From the IMG/VR virus record IMGVR_UViG_3300028388_001955, positions 1 through 37,917 of that record: a stretch of 37,917 nucleotides of DNA. One strand, 5' to 3'. The position numbers and the translations under genes are program-made. This DNA comes from a virus. Shown here piece by piece: positions 19,265 to 35,939 of this stretch (positions are counted from its first letter, which is position 1; every line of letters begins with the position of its first letter). A model generated the notes under the pieces. The model worked only from the letters and a program-made list of their open reading frames with translations. It did no database searches and was not told the DNA's origin.

Positions 19265-22200
19265 ATGGCGGACATCATTAGAACATCGATTGGCCGAAGA
19301 ACAATCGTAAAAAGTATTACTGTAGGCACACCAATTCCTACTGGGGGTCTAATTCCGTCAGGGTTCTCAGGTTCACGAGGTTTCACTGGTAGTGCAGGAT
19401 TTACTGGATTTACCGGATCACTCGGCCTTGCAGGTAGCCGTGGGTTTACAGGTAGCCGCGGAATTGGCTTTACTGGAAGCCAAGGTGCTGTTGGATTTGT
19501 TGGTAGTCAGGGTGACAGCGGATTTGTTGGTAGTGCAGGATTTACGGGATCTCGAGGTCAACAAGGTTTTACAGGGTCACAAGGTGATAGTGGTCTAACA
19601 GGGTTTACAGGCAGCCAAGGATCCATCGGTCTTACTGGATCACAAGGTTTTACTGGGTCAATCGGTTTTACAGGCTCCCGCGGCGATGTGGGTTTTGCTG
19701 GTTCTAAGGGGGATAGTGGTGCTGTAGGCTTCACTGGATCTCAAGGTTGGACGGGAAGCCAAGGTTTTACTGGTTCACAGGGTTCACAGGGTGCAATTGG
19801 TCTCACAGGTTCACAGGGTATTATAGGTCTCACTGGATCGCAGGGATTTACTGGGTCGAGGGGTGATAGTGGAGCCGTAGGCTTCACTGGTAGCCAAGGA
19901 TTCGCTGGTTCACAAGGCTTTGCTGGTTCACAAGGTTGGACTGGTTCTCGTGGCTTCATTGGTAGCCAAGGATGGACTGGTAGCCAAGGTATTCGAGGAG
20001 ACAGTGGCTTTGCTGGTAGCCAAGGATTCGCCGGATCACGAGGATTTACAGGATCTGCTGGATATACTGGATCTGTTGGAGATCGATATGCGACGACCAG
20101 CACATCATCATTAACAATTGGCCTTGGAGCCAAGACACTCAATGTTGATAGCGATCTAGCATATTCAACCTCACAAACCGTTATTATCGCTGCTAACGAT
20201 AGCAACGATATGGAAGGATCGGTAACACTATACACCCCTTCTACTGGTGTTATGAATGTTAATGTCACTGCTGTTACTGGATCGGGAACGTTTTCCAATT
20301 GGCAAGTTAACTTGTCCGGTGCTCCTGGTCCAATTGGCTACACCGGATCGAGAGGCTTCACTGGTAGTGCAGGATTTATAGGCAGCCAAGGATTCGCTGG
20401 ATCTCAGGGGTGGACTGGATCAAGAGGCTTTACTGGCAGCCAAGGGTTTGCAGGATCTCAAGGTATTCAGGGTGATAGTGGCTTCACTGGCAGCCAAGGT
20501 TTTGCTGGATCACAAGGTTGGACGGGAAGCCAAGGTTTTGCTGGATCTAGAGGTGATAGCGGAGCCGTAGGCTTCACGGGATCTCAAGGTTGGACCGGTA
20601 GCCAAGGATTTGCTGGATCTCAAGGTTGGACCGGTAGCCAAGGGTTTACAGGATCTAGAGGCGATAGTGGTGCTGTAGGCTTCACTGGATCTCAAGGTTG
20701 GACCGGAAGCCAAGGTTTTGCTGGATCACAAGGTTGGACGGGAAGCCAAGGGTTTACTGGATCTCGGGGTATTCAGGGTGATAGTGGTCTAACAGGGTTT
20801 ACGGGAAGCCAAGGTTGGACAGGCAGCCAAGGATTTACTGGATCTCGGGGTATTCAGGGTGATAGTGGTTTCGCTGGCAGCCAAGGGTTTACGGGATCTC
20901 AAGGGTTCACTGGTTCAGTTGGTGATAGCGGCCAAATAGGTTTTACAGGATCTCAGGGTGTTCGAGGAGACAGTGGCTTTGCTGGTTCACAAGGTTGGAC
21001 CGGTTCGCAGGGCTTCACAGGATCTCAAGGGTTCACAGGTTCTAGAGGGTTCACAGGATCTCAAGGTATTCAGGGTGATAGTGGCTTTACAGGATCACAG
21101 GGGTGGACAGGCAGCCAGGGTTGGACCGGAAGCCGAGGCTTCACTGGGTCTAGAGGTGATAGCGGTACTACGGGATTTGTGGGATCTCAAGGTTGGACAG
21201 GCAGCCAGGGTTGGACTGGCAGCCAAGGATTTACTGGATCAAGAGGCTTTGCTGGATCAAGAGGTGATAGCGGAGCAGTAGGATTCGCTGGATCACAGGG
21301 TTGGACCGGTAGCCAAGGATTCGCTGGATCAAGAGGCTTTACTGGTTCACGAGGTGATAGCGGAGCCGTAGGATTCGCTGGATCACAGGGTTGGACAGGT
21401 AGCCAAGGATTCGCTGGATCACAGGGTTGGACAGGTAGCCAAGGGTTTACAGGATCTAGAGGCGATAGCGGCGCTGTAGGGTTTACAGGATCTAGAGGCG
21501 ATAGCGGCGCTGTAGGGTTTACAGGCAGCCAAGGGTTTGCCGGATCCCAGGGCTGGACCGGTAGCCAAGGGTTTGCTGGATCTCAAGGTATTCAGGGTGA
21601 TAGTGGCTTCACAGGATCTCAGGGGTGGACAGGTAGCCAAGGATTCGCTGGATCACAGGGTTGGACAGGATCAAGAGGGTTCACAGGGTCTCAAGGTATT
21701 CAGGGTGATAGTGGCTTCACAGGATCACGGGGCTTCACAGGTTCTAGAGGGTTCACAGGATCTCAAGGTATTCGGGGCGATAGCGGCGCTGTAGGGTTTA
21801 CAGGCAGCCAAGGATTTACAGGATCTCAAGGTTGGACAGGTAGCCAAGGATTTACTGGGTCTAAAGGTGATAGCGGCGCTGTAGGGTTTGTTGGATCACA
21901 GGGTTGGACAGGTAGCCAAGGATTCGCTGGTTCACAGGGGTGGACAGGATCAAGAGGGTTCACAGGATCTAGAGGCGATGAGCTGTTCATCAGCAACACT
22001 ATTCCACCGTCGCCAGAAATTGGTGATTTGTGGTGGAATGATTCTGCTGGTCAGTTAAAATTATACCGAACAGATTCTGGCGACACGGCAGATGCTCTAT
22101 ACAACGATGTTGAGATTTTATTTAGCCTTGACAGCACAACTGCTGATTCATCGGTAAATGCATATTCTATTACAATTCCTGATCCTCCGGTTATATACAC

Positions 22201-23764
22201 AGATGGTCCGTTCCCAGGAACATCTGCAATGCTTGTTGCCGGCAACACTGCGATCCGCATTGATGCAGCAAACTGGCCAGATAGATTTATTGCGGGTGAT
22301 TCTGATTTTACGTTTGAAGTGTGGTTTAAGAGAACCAATCCTGGTGGTTACGCTGGATATGAAGTATTCATGGGTGACTACAACAACAACGCGTTTAATG
22401 AACAATCGTGGTGGATTGGTTACGATAGTACTAGTACAGGTACAAGATTTACGTATGAGCTGCGAGGCGTATTAACGTTACGCAACACCTTTGCTGGATT
22501 TAATAACAACTTTGATAGCGATTGGCACCACTTTGCAGTTCAGCGAACAAGTGGCAGCATCAAGATGTTCCTCGATGGTGTTGTCGGGACAGACTCTGCT
22601 ACAGACACCACAGCAGTTGGCGGAGATACTAGTGAAAACTTTGGTATTGGCTATAGTGGCAACCTTCCAAACGGATTCGAAGGCGCGCTATTTGATGCTA
22701 GAATTACCAGAGCTTCAAGATATGCAGAAACAGGGTTTACGCCACCGACAGAACCATTCTTTGCTGGAACAGTATTTGCTGACAGCACTGGATGGACTAC
22801 GATTGCTGGTGGATACACAGGATCACGTGGTGCTGACGGTACTTCTGGATTTGATGGCAGCCAAGGATTTACAGGATCGCGAGGATTTACGGGCTCCGAA
22901 GGGCTACTAAGCGTAAACGATTCAACTAACTACCCAATTGGTATTCCGGCTTATCCGGATAGAATTGTTGGCGTTGATGTTAGTGACACGGCGACAGATT
23001 CACAAGGTTCAATTAAGACATTCTATCTACAGGATGTTCAAAACCTAACGTCGTTTAATAATCAAACAACACTAACATATAAGCTAGCATTGAGTGATCG
23101 TGCAAACATCATCACAATGACACGTGCCGATTCAGCAAACACAGTTATTATTCCAACAAACGACAGCGTTGGTTTTGATAGCGGTACTGTAATCACAGTG
23201 ATTCAAAATGGTGGTGGTGAAACCAGAATTCAAGGATTTGATAGCACTGTTAGTGTTAACGGTAATCCAGGTGGTTTGGAGAGATCAGTAGGACAGTATT
23301 TCCCAATGGCTGTTCTCAAAACTGGACTAAACGACTGGGTTGTTACTGGTGCCTTAGCGCTTGATTCAAACAAAAATTATTTGATTAGTGGCACACAAGG
23401 TATTCAATTTGAAGTCAAGAATAATATTGTTGGTGATATCGACTCTACAGGTAATCTGATAATGACTGGAGATGTTACAGCATTTGGTACAATTTCTGAC
23501 ATTACAGCTAAGCAAAATGTCTCTCCAATTGTTGACGCCCTCGAAAAGATTAATCAACTTCATGGTGTTACATTTGAGTATAAAGATCATCCCAATAAAC
23601 CTATGACGGGAGTAATTGCGCAAGACGTGGAAAAGGTCCTTCCGGAAGCTATATACAACACCAAAGGAACAAAAGCTGTTCGTTATGGTAATATGGTTGG
23701 CTTATTAATTGAAGCTGTAAAAGAGTTAACGGAAAAAGTTAAGAGGTTGGAGAAAGATGAGTAA
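19265..23764 (+). CDS. Collagen-like tail fibre with LamG domain and S74 self-cleaving chaperone
   Basis: 1499 residues. Gly-X-Y collagen-like repeats, mostly hexads such as GFTGSQ, GWTGSQ and GFAGSR with periodic GDSGAV, fill residues about 33-272 and 352-904. They are interrupted by an 80-residue beta module (273-351). Residues about 953-1175 resemble a LamG/concanavalin domain ('FTFEVWFKR', 'WHHFAVQRTSGSIKMFLDG'). A short third collagen patch follows. The last 89 residues are a peptidase S74 intramolecular chaperone ('SDITAKQNV') with the conserved Ser1411 and Lys1416. S74 domains trimerise the fibre and then cut themselves off before that Ser. Phe or Trp at collagen X positions is unusual. 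It is probably the main long fibre. Confidence 0.87.
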   Translation: MADIIRTSIGRRTIVKSITVGTPIPTGGLIPSGFSGSRGFTGSAGFTGFTGSLGLAGSRGFTGSRGIGFTGSQGAVGFVGSQGDSGFVGSAGFTGSRGQQGFTGSQGDSGLTGFTGSQGSIGLTGSQGFTGSIGFTGSRGDVGFAGSKGDSGAVGFTGSQGWTGSQGFTGSQGSQGAIGLTGSQGIIGLTGSQGFTGSRGDSGAVGFTGSQGFAGSQGFAGSQGWTGSRGFIGSQGWTGSQGIRGDSGFAGSQGFAGSRGFTGSAGYTGSVGDRYATTSTSSLTIGLGAKTLNVDSDLAYSTSQTVIIAANDSNDMEGSVTLYTPSTGVMNVNVTAVTGSGTFSNWQVNLSGAPGPIGYTGSRGFTGSAGFIGSQGFAGSQGWTGSRGFTGSQGFAGSQGIQGDSGFTGSQGFAGSQGWTGSQGFAGSRGDSGAVGFTGSQGWTGSQGFAGSQGWTGSQGFTGSRGDSGAVGFTGSQGWTGSQGFAGSQGWTGSQGFTGSRGIQGDSGLTGFTGSQGWTGSQGFTGSRGIQGDSGFAGSQGFTGSQGFTGSVGDSGQIGFTGSQGVRGDSGFAGSQGWTGSQGFTGSQGFTGSRGFTGSQGIQGDSGFTGSQGWTGSQGWTGSRGFTGSRGDSGTTGFVGSQGWTGSQGWTGSQGFTGSRGFAGSRGDSGAVGFAGSQGWTGSQGFAGSRGFTGSRGDSGAVGFAGSQGWTGSQGFAGSQGWTGSQGFTGSRGDSGAVGFTGSRGDSGAVGFTGSQGFAGSQGWTGSQGFAGSQGIQGDSGFTGSQGWTGSQGFAGSQGWTGSRGFTGSQGIQGDSGFTGSRGFTGSRGFTGSQGIRGDSGAVGFTGSQGFTGSQGWTGSQGFTGSKGDSGAVGFVGSQGWTGSQGFAGSQGWTGSRGFTGSRGDELFISNTIPPSPEIGDLWWNDSAGQLKLYRTDSGDTADALYNDVEILFSLDSTTADSSVNAYSITIPDPPVIYTDGPFPGTSAMLVAGNTAIRIDAANWPDRFIAGDSDFTFEVWFKRTNPGGYAGYEVFMGDYNNNAFNEQSWWIGYDSTSTGTRFTYELRGVLTLRNTFAGFNNNFDSDWHHFAVQRTSGSIKMFLDGVVGTDSATDTTAVGGDTSENFGIGYSGNLPNGFEGALFDARITRASRYAETGFTPPTEPFFAGTVFADSTGWTTIAGGYTGSRGADGTSGFDGSQGFTGSRGFTGSEGLLSVNDSTNYPIGIPAYPDRIVGVDVSDTATDSQGSIKTFYLQDVQNLTSFNNQTTLTYKLALSDRANIITMTRADSANTVIIPTNDSVGFDSGTVITVIQNGGGETRIQGFDSTVSVNGNPGGLERSVGQYFPMAVLKTGLNDWVVTGALALDSNKNYLISGTQGIQFEVKNNIVGDIDSTGNLIMTGDVTAFGTISDITAKQNVSPIVDALEKINQLHGVTFEYKDHPNKPMTGVIAQDVEKVLPEAIYNTKGTKAVRYGNMVGLLIEAVKELTEKVKRLEKDE
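19370..21985 (+). repeat. Collagen-encoding 18-nt repeat array (two blocks)
   Basis: DNA-level array of degenerate 18-nt units encoding Gly-X-Y pairs, in blocks at about 19370-20080 and 20320-21985. Codons vary between units in some places and are identical in others, giving many long near-exact direct repeats. The clearest is a perfect 36-bp tandem pair at 21445-21480 and 21481-21516. Such arrays change length by slippage or recombination. Open antisense frames over this array are a by-product of its composition. Confidence 0.9.
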
Positions 23765-27391: not shown

Positions 27392-29398
27392 ATGAAAATT
27401 GCGATTATTGACCTTCTCGGTCTGCCATATGATGGAACAACAGTACAACACAGGGGACTCGGAGGATCTGAGTCAGCAGTAATTTATATCAGCCGTGAGT
27501 TGGTCAAGCTGGGATTTGACGTCACGGTTTACAATAAATGCCGCAGCGATTTTTCTAGTCCTGGTGTGTACGATGGTGTCAGGTATATTGACCACCAAAC
27601 TCATTTGTTACAATCCTCTGTTGACCAATACGATATTGTCATTTCATCACGATCAACAGCTCCATTCCGAAACGATAATCAATATGTCCATTTGACAATG
27701 GCAGCAAAGTACAGAGTACTTTGGATGCATGATACGTTTTGCCAAGGAGATGAAGTTCTTGAGGAAATGATTGTTGGGGGCTTCATTGACGAGGTGTTCA
27801 CATTATCAGATTTTCACAGTTGGTATGTAACAAGTTGCAATCACGGTCGCAAGCGGAATTTTGAAGTTCTGAAACACAAATTTTTTCAGACACGTAATGG
27901 TGTCAACGTGCACGATGTTGTTATGCAAGACCACATAATCGCCCACAAGGATAAAAATCGATTTGTCTATAATGCCAGTGCGACAAAAGGATTGGTTCCA
28001 CTAATAACAAAAATTTGGCCTGAAATTAAAAAAGCTATCCCACAAGCTAAATTAACATGTATTGGTGGGTATTACAGGTTCCCTAACGACAAGCCCGATC
28101 AGCAAGAACAGCTTGTTCGTAAAATGATGGATGATAAAAAGCTACGGCAGCAAGATGTTACTTTCACAGGAGTTATTACCCAACGAGAAGTATCAGAAAT
28201 TGTCAGCAACTCGTACATGATGTTATATCCAACAGCGTTTCCCGAAACATTTGGAATTAGCACTTTAGAGTCGTTGGTTTATCGCACTCCCGTAGTTACT
28301 AATAGGTTTGGTGCTTTAGAAGAGACAGCAATTGATCAGGCGTGTTATAAAATAAACTATAGTTCAACCAATAATGCTCTATTTAATAATATAGACGAAG
28401 AAAATCAAACAAAGTTATTTGTGCAGACTGTTATAGAAGCCTATAACAATGATTATCTACACAAGCAAAAACAGTGGTATTGCTCTGTAGTTGATGATAT
28501 TGTTGGTTGGGATACCGTTGCTATACAATGGAAGCAACATCTTTACTACAAGCTAGGTAAGTTTCTCAACGTTGATCAGTATCGTCGTGCGGACCGAATT
28601 AATCAAAAGGTCGCCCGTATATTTGGACGGCGGTTTAACAACGACTCACAACGAGTAAAGTATACTAGTTATGGCGAACAAAAACCTATCGTTATCATTA
28701 GTCCATTCCGCAACGCAGCTAATTACATTGAAAAATGTATCAGGTCCGTTGCACAACAAGACTATGACAATTACCAACATTGGTTAATAGATGATGCTAG
28801 TGACGATGATGGTAGTCAAGTTGCACGCGAAACAATACAATCGCTTCCACAGCGAATTCGACCGAGATTTAAACTAACATCTAATCCTGTTCGTGCAGGA
28901 GCAATTGTTAATCAGCTGCGTGCATTTAAGAAGTTGCAACCCGACTGTATTGTAATGCTATTAGATGGGGACGATTGGCTTGTCAATAACAATACGGTGT
29001 TTGATATGTACAACGATTTGTATCATAATGGTGTCGATTTCACATATGGTTCTATGTGGTCTGAGGCAGATCAGATTCCACTAATTGCGCAACAATACCC
29101 CCAATCTGTTATTAATAACAAACAATACAGCAAGATTTCATTTCCGTGGAAGATTCCATACACACACTTGAGAACATTTAATAGCAACTTAACCAAAAAT
29201 TTAGATCACAATGCATTTAAGAAGCCATTTGGTGAATGGATGATGGCAGGTGCAGATAATCCTTTATTCTATCAATTAATTGAAAAAGCATCTAATCCTG
29301 TTGCCGTAAAGGAGATTGTTTGCCACTACAATGATCTTAATCCATTAAACGATTATAAAGTTAATGCAGAAGAACAAAACAGGAATGCTGGATTATGA
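27392..29398 (+). CDS. Bifunctional glycosyltransferase: GT4 (GT-B) plus GT2 (GT-A)
   Basis: 668 residues with two enzyme domains. Residues 1-400 form a GT-B/GT4 transferase: N-terminal 'GLGGSESAVIYISREL' and the C-terminal EX7E motif 'PETFGISTLE' (Glu285 and Glu293) that binds the sugar nucleotide. Residues about 430-668 form a GT2 (GT-A) domain: 'PIVIISPFRNAANYIEKCIR', 'LIDDASDDDGS' and the metal-binding 'LLDGDDW' (Asp525-Asp528). There is no signal peptide or membrane span, so it works in the infected-cell cytoplasm. The acceptor is unknown. Its place after the adhesin genes suggests the phage fibres, but host surface glycan or DNA cannot be excluded. The stop overlaps the next start (ATGA). 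Confidence 0.85.
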   Translation: MKIAIIDLLGLPYDGTTVQHRGLGGSESAVIYISRELVKLGFDVTVYNKCRSDFSSPGVYDGVRYIDHQTHLLQSSVDQYDIVISSRSTAPFRNDNQYVHLTMAAKYRVLWMHDTFCQGDEVLEEMIVGGFIDEVFTLSDFHSWYVTSCNHGRKRNFEVLKHKFFQTRNGVNVHDVVMQDHIIAHKDKNRFVYNASATKGLVPLITKIWPEIKKAIPQAKLTCIGGYYRFPNDKPDQQEQLVRKMMDDKKLRQQDVTFTGVITQREVSEIVSNSYMMLYPTAFPETFGISTLESLVYRTPVVTNRFGALEETAIDQACYKINYSSTNNALFNNIDEENQTKLFVQTVIEAYNNDYLHKQKQWYCSVVDDIVGWDTVAIQWKQHLYYKLGKFLNVDQYRRADRINQKVARIFGRRFNNDSQRVKYTSYGEQKPIVIISPFRNAANYIEKCIRSVAQQDYDNYQHWLIDDASDDDGSQVARETIQSLPQRIRPRFKLTSNPVRAGAIVNQLRAFKKLQPDCIVMLLDGDDWLVNNNTVFDMYNDLYHNGVDFTYGSMWSEADQIPLIAQQYPQSVINNKQYSKISFPWKIPYTHLRTFNSNLTKNLDHNAFKKPFGEWMMAGADNPLFYQLIEKASNPVAVKEIVCHYNDLNPLNDYKVNAEEQNRNAGL

Positions 29399-30627
29399 AA
29401 CGAATTTTGATTGCTGTTCCAACAAACAAATATATTGAACCTGAAACATTTAAGTCAATTTACGATCAGGAAATCCCAGAAGGATACTCAGTAGATTTTC
29501 AATTCTTTTATGGATATCAGATTGATCAAATTCGTAATTTAATTGCGCATTGGGCAGTCAGCGCTTACGATTACTTGTTTAGTGTTGATAGTGACATTGT
29601 ATTACCCAAAGACGCTCTAAAGAAATTGCTAGCAGCAGATAAAGATATTATTTCGGGGCTGTATATTCAACGCAAGCCTGGAGAACACATCTTAGAAATA
29701 TATAAGATGACGCCATCAGGAGGATGTACAAACATAACAGCTGAGCAACTTGCAGATTTACCAGGAGATGTTGTTAACGTTGCCGCTTGCGGAATGGGAT
29801 GCTGCCTAATTAAATCGGAAGTACTATCTGCGATTGGATATCCACAATTTGTTTATAAAAGTGCATTACAACATAAGCATACTGTTTCAGAAGATGTTAA
29901 TATGTGCCGTAAAGCGGAGCAGCACGGGTACTTCACGTGGGCTGAAAAGACTGTGATTTGCAAACACATCGGGCAGACACAATTCTTGGTGCAGATGCCA
30001 GAGCGTAAACCAAAACCACAACAGTTAACACACCTCGACAAAGTCGCGCAAGCGGACCTGCTACCTCAAACCCACGTTGATTTCTTAAAGTCTTTATCAA
30101 TTAAACCAAGAGTAATTTATGACATTGGTGCGTGTGTATTACATTGGACACGACATGCACAAAAGATCTGGCCTGATGCAAGCATTTTTTGTTTTGATGC
30201 GTCCCCAGCGGTTCGGCGGTTTTTTCACCCACACCAAGGCTACATAGGTCCGTTATCAGATCAAGATGGCCGCACTGTAATGTTCTATAATGATGTTGAC
30301 AATCCAGGTGGTAACAGCTACTACAAAGAAACCACTGGTTATTACGACAACATCAAACCAACGCCAATGAAAACACGTACATTAGACAGTGTTGTCAAAC
30401 AAGCGGGTTGGCCGCTTGCCGATTTGATTAAAATAGACGTGCAGGGGGCAGAGCTGGATGTGTTAAAGGGCGCGGAAAACGTTTTGAGCAATAAACCAGA
30501 TCTTATTGTTGAGGCACAATTTACAAACTATAATCAAGGGGCGCCCAAGTTTGACGATGTGGACAAATTCCTCACAGACCTGGGATACAAATGTCAACAC
30601 GTGATTAACAAAAATACCTATAAATAA
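29395..30627 (+). CDS. Glycosyltransferase-like domain fused to FkbM methyltransferase
   Basis: 410 residues. Residues 1-215 look like a GT-A glycosyltransferase ('RILIAVPTNKYIEPETFKSI', 'YLFSVDSDIVLPKDALKKLL'), with DSD at 65-67 as the likely metal-binding DxD. Residues about 238-405 are an FkbM-family SAM-dependent methyltransferase: motif I 'VIYDIGAC' (Asp243) and the family signature 'IKIDVQGAELDVLKGAE' (Asp348). FkbM enzymes usually O-methylate sugars, so this protein may add and then cap a sugar. It is coupled to the upstream GT4-GT2 gene by a 4-nt overlap, so three sugar-transfer domains and one methyltransferase form one cassette. The late promoter for gp13 overlaps its end. Confidence 0.82.
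   Translation: MKRILIAVPTNKYIEPETFKSIYDQEIPEGYSVDFQFFYGYQIDQIRNLIAHWAVSAYDYLFSVDSDIVLPKDALKKLLAADKDIISGLYIQRKPGEHILEIYKMTPSGGCTNITAEQLADLPGDVVNVAACGMGCCLIKSEVLSAIGYPQFVYKSALQHKHTVSEDVNMCRKAEQHGYFTWAEKTVICKHIGQTQFLVQMPERKPKPQQLTHLDKVAQADLLPQTHVDFLKSLSIKPRVIYDIGACVLHWTRHAQKIWPDASIFCFDASPAVRRFFHPHQGYIGPLSDQDGRTVMFYNDVDNPGGNSYYKETTGYYDNIKPTPMKTRTLDSVVKQAGWPLADLIKIDVQGAELDVLKGAENVLSNKPDLIVEAQFTNYNQGAPKFDDVDKFLTDLGYKCQHVINKNTYK
30619..30626 (+). promoter_or_regulatory. T4-type late promoter box upstream of gp13
   Basis: Exact TATAAATA, overlapping the last codons of the methyltransferase gene and 30 nt before the gp13 start at 30656. It separates the sugar-modification cassette from the neck, packaging and tail genes. 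Confidence 0.75.
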
Positions 30628-33491: not shown

Positions 33492-35939
33492 ATGCCTGAG
33501 ATAGTTGACTGGTATAATGGTAATCCGCAAGTTAAGCGTGATGGGGTAATTACTCAGTTTACACAAGAGCAGGTAAACGAATATATTAAGTGTTCTCAAG
33601 ATCCCGCTTACTTTGCGCGTAAATATTGTAAGGTAATTAACCTGGATCGCGGTTTGGTTCCTTTTGACCTATACCCGTACCAGGAGAAGATGTTTGATCA
33701 CTTCAACGACAATCGATTCAGCATTGTGCTTGCTTGTAGACAGTCAGGCAAAGACCAACCTCTCAACACAAAGATACCAACACCAACAGGGTGGTCGACG
33801 ATCGGCGATTTGCAAATTGGGGATCAAGTAATTGGCGATGATGGGTTACCTACAACAGTAATTGATAAATCTCCTATATTTAACGATAAGATAATATATA
33901 AAATAACATTCGATACAGGTGAAACGGTTAAAGCCTCATCAACACACCTATGGGATATTAAACACAACAGCTGGACCCGTTATAACAAATCTGCTCGAAC
34001 AATAACGACACAAGAGATTTACGATAAGTTTCATAGCGGCTCAAAAACGTATTCAAACGGACGAATGTTTATAGATGCTGCTCGCCCGGTGGAATTACCT
34101 GAACGCAACTTACCAATTGATCCTTACACCCTAGGTGTGTGGTTAGGGGATGGTAGTAGACGTGTTGGATGTGTATATGGTGTAGAATCAGATCTAAAAG
34201 AAATCATTAGTTACATACCTTTATCAAATACGGGATTGAGAGATTGTAACACTGCAAAGGTTGTTACAATCACAGGACTAACCACCTTGTTGCGTGAACA
34301 CAATATACAGAACAATAAACACATTCCTCACAACTATTTGAGAAGCTCAATCAACCAACGTCTTGAATTATTGCGCGGTTTAATGGACACAGATGGCAGT
34401 GTTGTTAGAGCTAGTGGCGCGTGTGAATTTTATCAGAAAGATCGTGACATTATCGATCAATTTAGAGAACTGTTGAGTTCACTGGGTATTAAGAGTTATT
34501 TGTCATACAAGACAATTACTGACCAAAAGTATTGGACTGTGCGTTTCAGCACTTCATTAGATGTGTTTAAATTAAAGCGCAAGTTGCACATCCAACAGAC
34601 AAAGCGAAAAAACCACCCCAAAGCTACAAGACACTACATCACTAATGTTGAACAGGTAGAAAGTGTTCCAACACAGTGTATATCTGTAAACAACGACAGT
34701 CATCTGTATCTATGTGGTGATAATTGGGTTCCTACTCACAACTCAATTTCTTCTGTCGCATATCTGCTGTGGTATGCAATTTTTCATTCTGAAAAGACGG
34801 TTGCTATTCTCGCGAACAAAGGTGCTACTGCTCGTGAGATGCTTTCTCGTGTCACACTGATGCTTGAAAACCTTCCGTTCTGGCTGCAGCCAGGATGTAA
34901 GAGCTTGAACAAGGGTAGCATCGAATTTAGCAATAACAGCACAATCATGGCAGGTTCGACGTCTGCTTCATCTATTCGTGGTTTTTCTGTTAACTTGCTA
35001 TATTTGGACGAGTTTGCATTTGTTGAAGATGCAGCGACGTTCTACACGTCGACATATCCAGTTGTTTCATCTGGTAAAGACACAAAGGTGATCATCACGT
35101 CTACCGCTAATGGTATCGGTAACACATACCACAAGATCTGGGAAGGAGCTGTACAGCGAACAAATCAATACAAGCCATTTCGCGTGGACTGGTGGGACGT
35201 TCCGGGTCGCGATGAAGAGTGGAAAAAGCAGACAATTGAGAACACGTCTCAGCTACAATTTGACCAAGAGTTTGGAAACACATTCTTCGGAACGGGTGAC
35301 ACGTTAATTGATTCAAGGGTGCTAATTGACTTGCGCGCAGTTGAACCTATAGCATTGAGAGAAAACAATTGTCTATCTGTATACAAAGAGCCTGTTAAGG
35401 ATAATGATTATTTAATGATGGTTGACGTGTCTAAAGGTAGGGGTCAGGATTACTCTACGTTTAACATTATCAATGTTACCAGCAAGCCTTTTGAGCAAGT
35501 AGCTGTATATCGAAATAACACAATTTCACCATTATTATTTCCAGATATTATTCACAAATATGCGCGATTGTATAACAATGCATATGTTATTGTTGAAAGC
35601 AATGATCAAGGTTCTATAGTTTGTAATGCTTTATACCACGACATTGAATATGAAAATATTCATCTGGAATCTGTTATTAAATCAGATCGAATTGGTATAG
35701 AAGTTAATAAAAAAGTTAAGCGAATAGGTTGTAGCGCAATTAAAGATATTATCGAATCTCACAAATTAAAAATTGTTGATGAAGAAACAATTCGCGAAAT
35801 GTCTACTTTTATTGCAAAGGGTCAGTCATATGAAGCGTCAGATAACAATCATGACGACTTGATGATGAACCTGGTTTTATTTGGATATTTTGTTCTTGGC
35901 GATGATTTTATGAATATGACTGGGGTTGGATGCTGCTGA
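33492..35939 (+). CDS. gp17: Terminase large subunit gp17 interrupted by an in-frame intein
   Basis: 815 residues including a 330-residue intein (88-417). The spliced protein would have 485 residues. Extein features are the N-terminal 'DPAYFARKYCKVINLDRGLV', Walker A 'CRQSGK' joined to 'SISSVAYLLW' after splicing, and Walker B 'LLYLDEFAF' (Asp506, Glu507). The RNase H-like nuclease has three acidic sites: 'MMVDVSKGRGQDYSTF', 'VIVESNDQG' and 'HDDLMMNLVLFGYF'. gp17 is the ATP-driven packaging motor and headful nuclease. The ATPase cannot work until the intein is removed. The reading frame stops after 'TGVGCC', but a plausible 31-residue tail continues in the +1 frame to 36024, suggesting a frameshift. 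It starts 23 nt after gp16. Confidence 0.93.
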   Translation: MPEIVDWYNGNPQVKRDGVITQFTQEQVNEYIKCSQDPAYFARKYCKVINLDRGLVPFDLYPYQEKMFDHFNDNRFSIVLACRQSGKDQPLNTKIPTPTGWSTIGDLQIGDQVIGDDGLPTTVIDKSPIFNDKIIYKITFDTGETVKASSTHLWDIKHNSWTRYNKSARTITTQEIYDKFHSGSKTYSNGRMFIDAARPVELPERNLPIDPYTLGVWLGDGSRRVGCVYGVESDLKEIISYIPLSNTGLRDCNTAKVVTITGLTTLLREHNIQNNKHIPHNYLRSSINQRLELLRGLMDTDGSVVRASGACEFYQKDRDIIDQFRELLSSLGIKSYLSYKTITDQKYWTVRFSTSLDVFKLKRKLHIQQTKRKNHPKATRHYITNVEQVESVPTQCISVNNDSHLYLCGDNWVPTHNSISSVAYLLWYAIFHSEKTVAILANKGATAREMLSRVTLMLENLPFWLQPGCKSLNKGSIEFSNNSTIMAGSTSASSIRGFSVNLLYLDEFAFVEDAATFYTSTYPVVSSGKDTKVIITSTANGIGNTYHKIWEGAVQRTNQYKPFRVDWWDVPGRDEEWKKQTIENTSQLQFDQEFGNTFFGTGDTLIDSRVLIDLRAVEPIALRENNCLSVYKEPVKDNDYLMMVDVSKGRGQDYSTFNIINVTSKPFEQVAVYRNNTISPLLFPDIIHKYARLYNNAYVIVESNDQGSIVCNALYHDIEYENIHLESVIKSDRIGIEVNKKVKRIGCSAIKDIIESHKLKIVDEETIREMSTFIAKGQSYEASDNNHDDLMMNLVLFGYFVLGDDFMNMTGVGCC
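33753..34742 (+). mobile_element. LAGLIDADG intein in terL, class 3 signature, Asp1
   Basis: 330 residues in frame, from Asp88 to Asn417 of the terminase. The C-terminal splice junction is standard: 'VPTHN' then Ser418. The N-terminal junction must follow Lys87 to restore Walker A GK-S, so the first intein residue is Asp (in 'DQPLNTKIPTPTGW'), not Cys or Ser. Class 3 markers are present: Trp154 two residues after the block B His152 ('SSTHLW'), Cys396 in block F ('QCISV') and Thr415 before the penultimate His. Two LAGLIDADG motifs, 'LGVWLGDGS' (214-222) and 'LLRGLMDTDGS' (293-303), show a homing endonuclease. Cutting of intein-free terL alleles is inferred. Confidence 0.92.

Follow-up and report, generated by a model that had tools for sequence, protein, structure and literature searches.

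The window analysed here, the whole 37,917-nucleotide stretch of the IMG/VR virus record IMGVR_UViG_3300028388_001955, contains a phage terminase gene whose Walker A motif is split by an insert with aspartate as its first residue. This raises the question of what the insert is and how such an element could splice. The host gene (33492..35939, + strand) encodes a precursor of 815 aa, annotated from Pfam (PF03237, PF17289) and from homologues as a T4-type terminase large subunit. Both the ATPase domain (Terminase_6N, E=4e-16) and the nuclease domain (Terminase_6C, E=5e-16) are present, as are T4-like neighbours (tail sheath stabilizer, small terminase and tail sheath genes), in agreement with the T4-like terminase that a sequence-only reading of the window had named as the host protein. 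The N-extein (33492..33752, +) has 87 aa and carries the Walker A sequence ...CRQSGK at its end, while the C-extein (34743..35939, +) begins with Ser+1 (SISSV...) and comprises the remaining ATPase and the nuclease domain. Elsewhere in the window, positions 19265-23764 encode a probable tail fibre, a collagen-repeat protein of 1499 aa with a C-terminal Peptidase_S74 (endosialidase chaperone) domain. Between the fibre and terminase genes, at 27392-30627, lie two neighbouring genes that gave glycosyltransferase and methyltransferase-like matches.

The insert (33753..34742, +) encodes 330 aa, from Asp1 to Asn330, in frame and with no stops. It reads ...CRQSGK↓DQPLNTKIPTPTGW...NWVPTHN↓SISSV, where the arrows mark the junctions, and separates the Walker A Lys (GK) from Ser. 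An uninterrupted CRQSGKSIS was found in Phage C48C1 and in about 70 IMG/VR viral contigs, whose terminases are 72-76% identical; most of the insert-free homologues have CRQSGKSISSV and the others close variants. The splice junctions are exact because about 70 insert-free homologues read straight through GK↓SIS, and this continuity rules out other N-terminal junctions. Asp1 is therefore no alignment choice, given that THN↓S fixes the C-terminal junction and homologue continuity the N-terminal one. The earlier description of a 330-residue in-frame insert, with Asp after GK and THN before Ser, proved correct to the residue in its coordinates and ends, as did its precursor numbering (Asp88 = D1, Trp154 = W67, Cys396 = C309, Thr415 = T328). 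It had also assumed an empty GK-S junction, and the homologue alignment, which could have contradicted either this junction or the N-terminal site, supports both. No second copy of the intein was found within the record, which is a fragment of 37.9 kb.

With respect to splicing class, neither Cys nor Ser is available as a nucleophile at intein position 1 (Asp1 codon, 33753..33755, +), as is characteristic of class 3, and the WCT triplet is complete: W67 (block B 12), C309 (block F 4) and T328 (block G 5). These residues lie in block B His65-Leu-Trp67 (33945..33953, +), in block F, whose Cys309 (34677..34679, +) is the presumed initiating nucleophile, and in block G Thr328-His329-Asn330 (34734..34742, +). 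In addition, H65 of block B, the penultimate H329, the terminal N330 and the nucleophilic Ser+1 are all present. The comparison set consisted of 184 distinct related inteins from phage records, viral contigs and prokaryote genomes, in which H65, T328 and N330 were kept in all 184, C309 in 183 and W67 in 182. The supposed preference of class 3 inteins for Ser+1 did not hold in this set, where the +1 residue was Thr in 96 inteins, Ser in 86 and Cys in 2. A PDB sequence search gave the class 3 DnaB inteins of M. smegmatis and M. chimaera as top matches (E ~1e-20). In a tree of 66 inteins, with a thin outgroup of one class 1-like row only, the window intein fell in a 32-member clade (99/99), all of whose members are at the RQxGK site of T4-like terminases and have the WCT triplet.

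The predicted structure was examined with an AlphaFold model of the intein and short flanks (pLDDT 90). The modelled splicing domain superposed on 6bs8, the M. smegmatis class 3 DnaB intein, with Z 19.9 and 1.3 Å over 125 residues at 36% identity, and Asp1 (model residue 10) would overlay residue 1 of 6bs8, which is Ala1. Searched alone, this predicted domain had class 3 inteins as its top structural matches, consistent with a HINT fold, and the whole model, endonuclease included, aligned with PI-SceI (Z 27). A different mechanism, either class 1 or a class 2-like direct attack by Ser+1 in which Cys309, Trp67 and Thr328 are incidental, is suggested by the non-nucleophilic position 1, a feature shared with class 2 inteins. 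However, it is scarcely credible in view of the complete WCT triplet, the position among WCT inteins in the tree and the class 3 matches of the modelled domain. The class 3 intein at GK↓S that had been read from the sequence is thus supported by motifs, homologues, tree and model. With a probability of about 95%, the insert is a class 3 intein of full length, in which a splicing domain is combined with a LAGLIDADG homing endonuclease and which interrupts the P-loop of a large terminase subunit from a T4-type phage. The analysis establishes its anatomy, the exact position of both junctions, its membership of a class 3 clade, the conservation of the catalytic residues and a predicted fold.

Some inteins of the comparison depart from this pattern. 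Those of viral contigs L183 and L154 are class 3-like and combine Cys1 with a complete His/Trp/Cys/Thr set; they are possible class 1/class 3 hybrids, which a definition based on the absence of Cys1 would leave out. A site different from GK↓S is used by the class 3-like intein of viral contig L176, whose C-terminal end lies shortly before the P-loop (VTHN↓CPRQCGKS) and whose +1 residue is Cys.

Position 1 was variable among the 184 inteins, with Ala in 106, Pro in 25, Met in 12, Gln in 11, Gly in 10, Leu in 6, Asp in 4, Ser in 3, Cys in 3 and others in 4. The remaining Asp1 cases were the terminase inteins of Clavibacter phage CMP1 (GVGK↓DLDVNT) and mycobacteriophage Minerva, and one from a Patescibacteria contig, whose start was placed by alignment alone. 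Minerva shares its intein, at 100% identity, with phage Baka (NGKG↓DLGHNT...PTHN↓SILEA). Asp1 is certain in Baka because the intein-free Courthouse (NGKGSILEA) and WXIN (NGKGSCLEA) show the uninterrupted site. CMP1 and Baka/Minerva rule out that Asp1 is unique to the window. Kelley et al. (2016) reported quick splicing of the Baka TerL1-b intein and cleavage of the Courthouse terminase gene by its endonuclease (PMC5050341), which demonstrates that a class 3 intein can splice with Asp at position 1. Aspartate is not mentioned in the main text of that paper. The Asp1 inteins were scattered in the tree and did not form one group; Asp1 thus seems to have arisen on several occasions and to take no part in catalysis. 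Asp1 was absent from the closest relatives of the window intein, which have Met, Gln, Ala or Pro. The expectation that Asp1 would be an informative variant is consequently weakened: it is rare (4/184), but it recurs in CMP1 and Minerva/Baka, and in Baka with quick splicing.

This rarity, and the difference from all other 42 inteins at the RQxGK site, would fit an intein that does not splice or is decaying, its reaction at the N-junction being slowed or prevented by Asp1, with cleavage or a dead precursor as the outcome. We consider this highly improbable, given that the frame is open with all catalytic residues intact, that the terminase should be essential to the phage, and that the Baka intein, class 3 with Asp1, splices quickly. 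Asp1 may cause slower splicing or side cleavage in the window intein. It is very unlikely that Asp1 is functional, with a side-chain carboxylate that lies next to the Lys-Asp bond to be cleaved, tunes the first step (e.g., in a pH- or metal-dependent manner) and makes terminase activation conditional.

In the preferred reading, that of an ordinary class 3 intein, Asp1 would be a bystander that happens to occur in this phage lineage, position 1 being no nucleophile in class 3. Cys309, activated by His65 and Thr328, would attack the Lys(-1)-Asp1 bond to give a thioester branch, and the N-extein would then be transferred to Ser+1. Asn330 would cyclise with the assistance of His329, and extein ligation would restore the Walker A motif CRQSGKSIS. 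By analogy with its family, the window intein probably splices, has an active endonuclease and is capable of homing.

It had also been proposed that the intein acts as a timing gate, with delayed or conditional splicing releasing the terminase ATPase only late in infection. The insert splits the Walker A Lys from Ser and, therefore, the unspliced ATPase should be inactive. From what is known of P-loop biochemistry, ATPase activity should be held back for as long as the intein divides the motif. Furthermore, conditional splicing of a class 3 mycobacterial DnaB intein has been described (PMC6195587). However, five of the five terminase inteins of Kelley et al., that of Baka with Asp1 included, spliced readily (PMC5050341), and the intact endonuclease and the absence from about 70 close terminases fit a selfish homing element that the phage does not need. 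Our analysis of the window gave no sign of regulated splicing, and the timing gate is unlikely.

The insert matches LAGLIDADG_3 (PF14528, E=2e-11), and both motif acids are intact, D133 in motif 1 (LGVWLGDGS, 34131..34157, +) and D214 in motif 2 (LLRGLMDTDGS, 34368..34400, +), so that the two-motif LAGLIDADG endonuclease noticed earlier is indeed retained. By 2020, 1701 class 3 inteins had been catalogued, 82.5% of them with LAGLIDADG motifs (PMC7891396), and P-loop ATPases and terminases are established preferred intein hosts (PMC5050341). The endonuclease would most likely cut insert-free terminase genes of co-infecting phages at the same P-loop site, and we propose that the element spreads by homing through this cutting of empty sites. 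At the empty site of record L049, 35 of 40 flanking bases match, and DNA conservation at the empty site shows a weak peak only (0.83 at -30 to -11, 0.74 around the junction). A 292-residue intein in L092 (2992-3867), about 38 residues shorter than its near-identical 330-residue sisters, possibly reflects an endonuclease deletion.

In the extein tree, the window terminase belongs to a 100% clade with 15 intein-free terminases. The distribution of the element within its own terminase lineage is therefore patchy, as would be predicted for a homing intein, although it must be noted that the intein itself was the query that found many of the intein-bearing rows, which biases the sampling. The window intein adjoins a Met1/Gln1 group (97/98) in the intein tree. 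No recent donor was found, the nearest known relative being only about 51% identical, and recent homing is therefore not directly visible. Base composition gave no sign of foreign origin (GC 0.392 for intein and exteins alike; GC3 0.35 vs 0.37). The intein may have been acquired by transfer, or it may have been retained here and lost elsewhere.

Terminase P-loop class 3 inteins are already known as a family, and the window intein is one ordinary further member. It adds one such case and one apparently independent Asp1 case, which supports a non-catalytic first residue in class 3, and it leaves the understanding of inteins and packaging motors unchanged. Related terminases carry about 40 other class 3 inteins at their RQxGK↓S/T site, in Synechococcus phage B23, Klebsiella phages RaK2 and K64-1, E. 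coli krischviruses and many IMG/VR contigs. These inteins share with the window intein the insertion point, the WCT triplet, the LAGLIDADG endonuclease, the THN end and a length of about 330 residues, and the nearest ones fall in the same supported clade; they differ in sequence (31-51% identity) and in having Ala, Met, Pro or Gln in place of Asp at position 1. For RaK2 and K64-1, the presence of an intein in the large terminase had been pointed out in 2017 (PMC5259590). Four terminase records (L002, L003, L005 and L006), from Synechococcus phage B23, E. coli phage Ec_Makalu_002 and Klebsiella phages fENko-Kae01 and RaK2, contain the intein but do not annotate it.

The Baka/Minerva TerL1-b intein resembles that of the window in being class 3, with Asp1, Ser+1 and a LAGLIDADG endonuclease, in the Walker A region of a terminase. 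In contrast, it has a Terminase_1-type host and a site one residue later (GKG↓S), is about 30% identical and is distant in the tree; its splicing and cutting have been demonstrated (PMC5050341). The CMP1 intein is also class 3 with Asp1 directly after GK, but has Thr+1 and the P-loop context GVGK↓T and is about 36% identical. Finally, the mycobacterial DnaB class 3 mini-inteins (6bs8, 6rix) share the splicing-domain fold and the active-site residues with the window intein, and differ from it in their lack of an endonuclease, their Ala1 and their helicase host.
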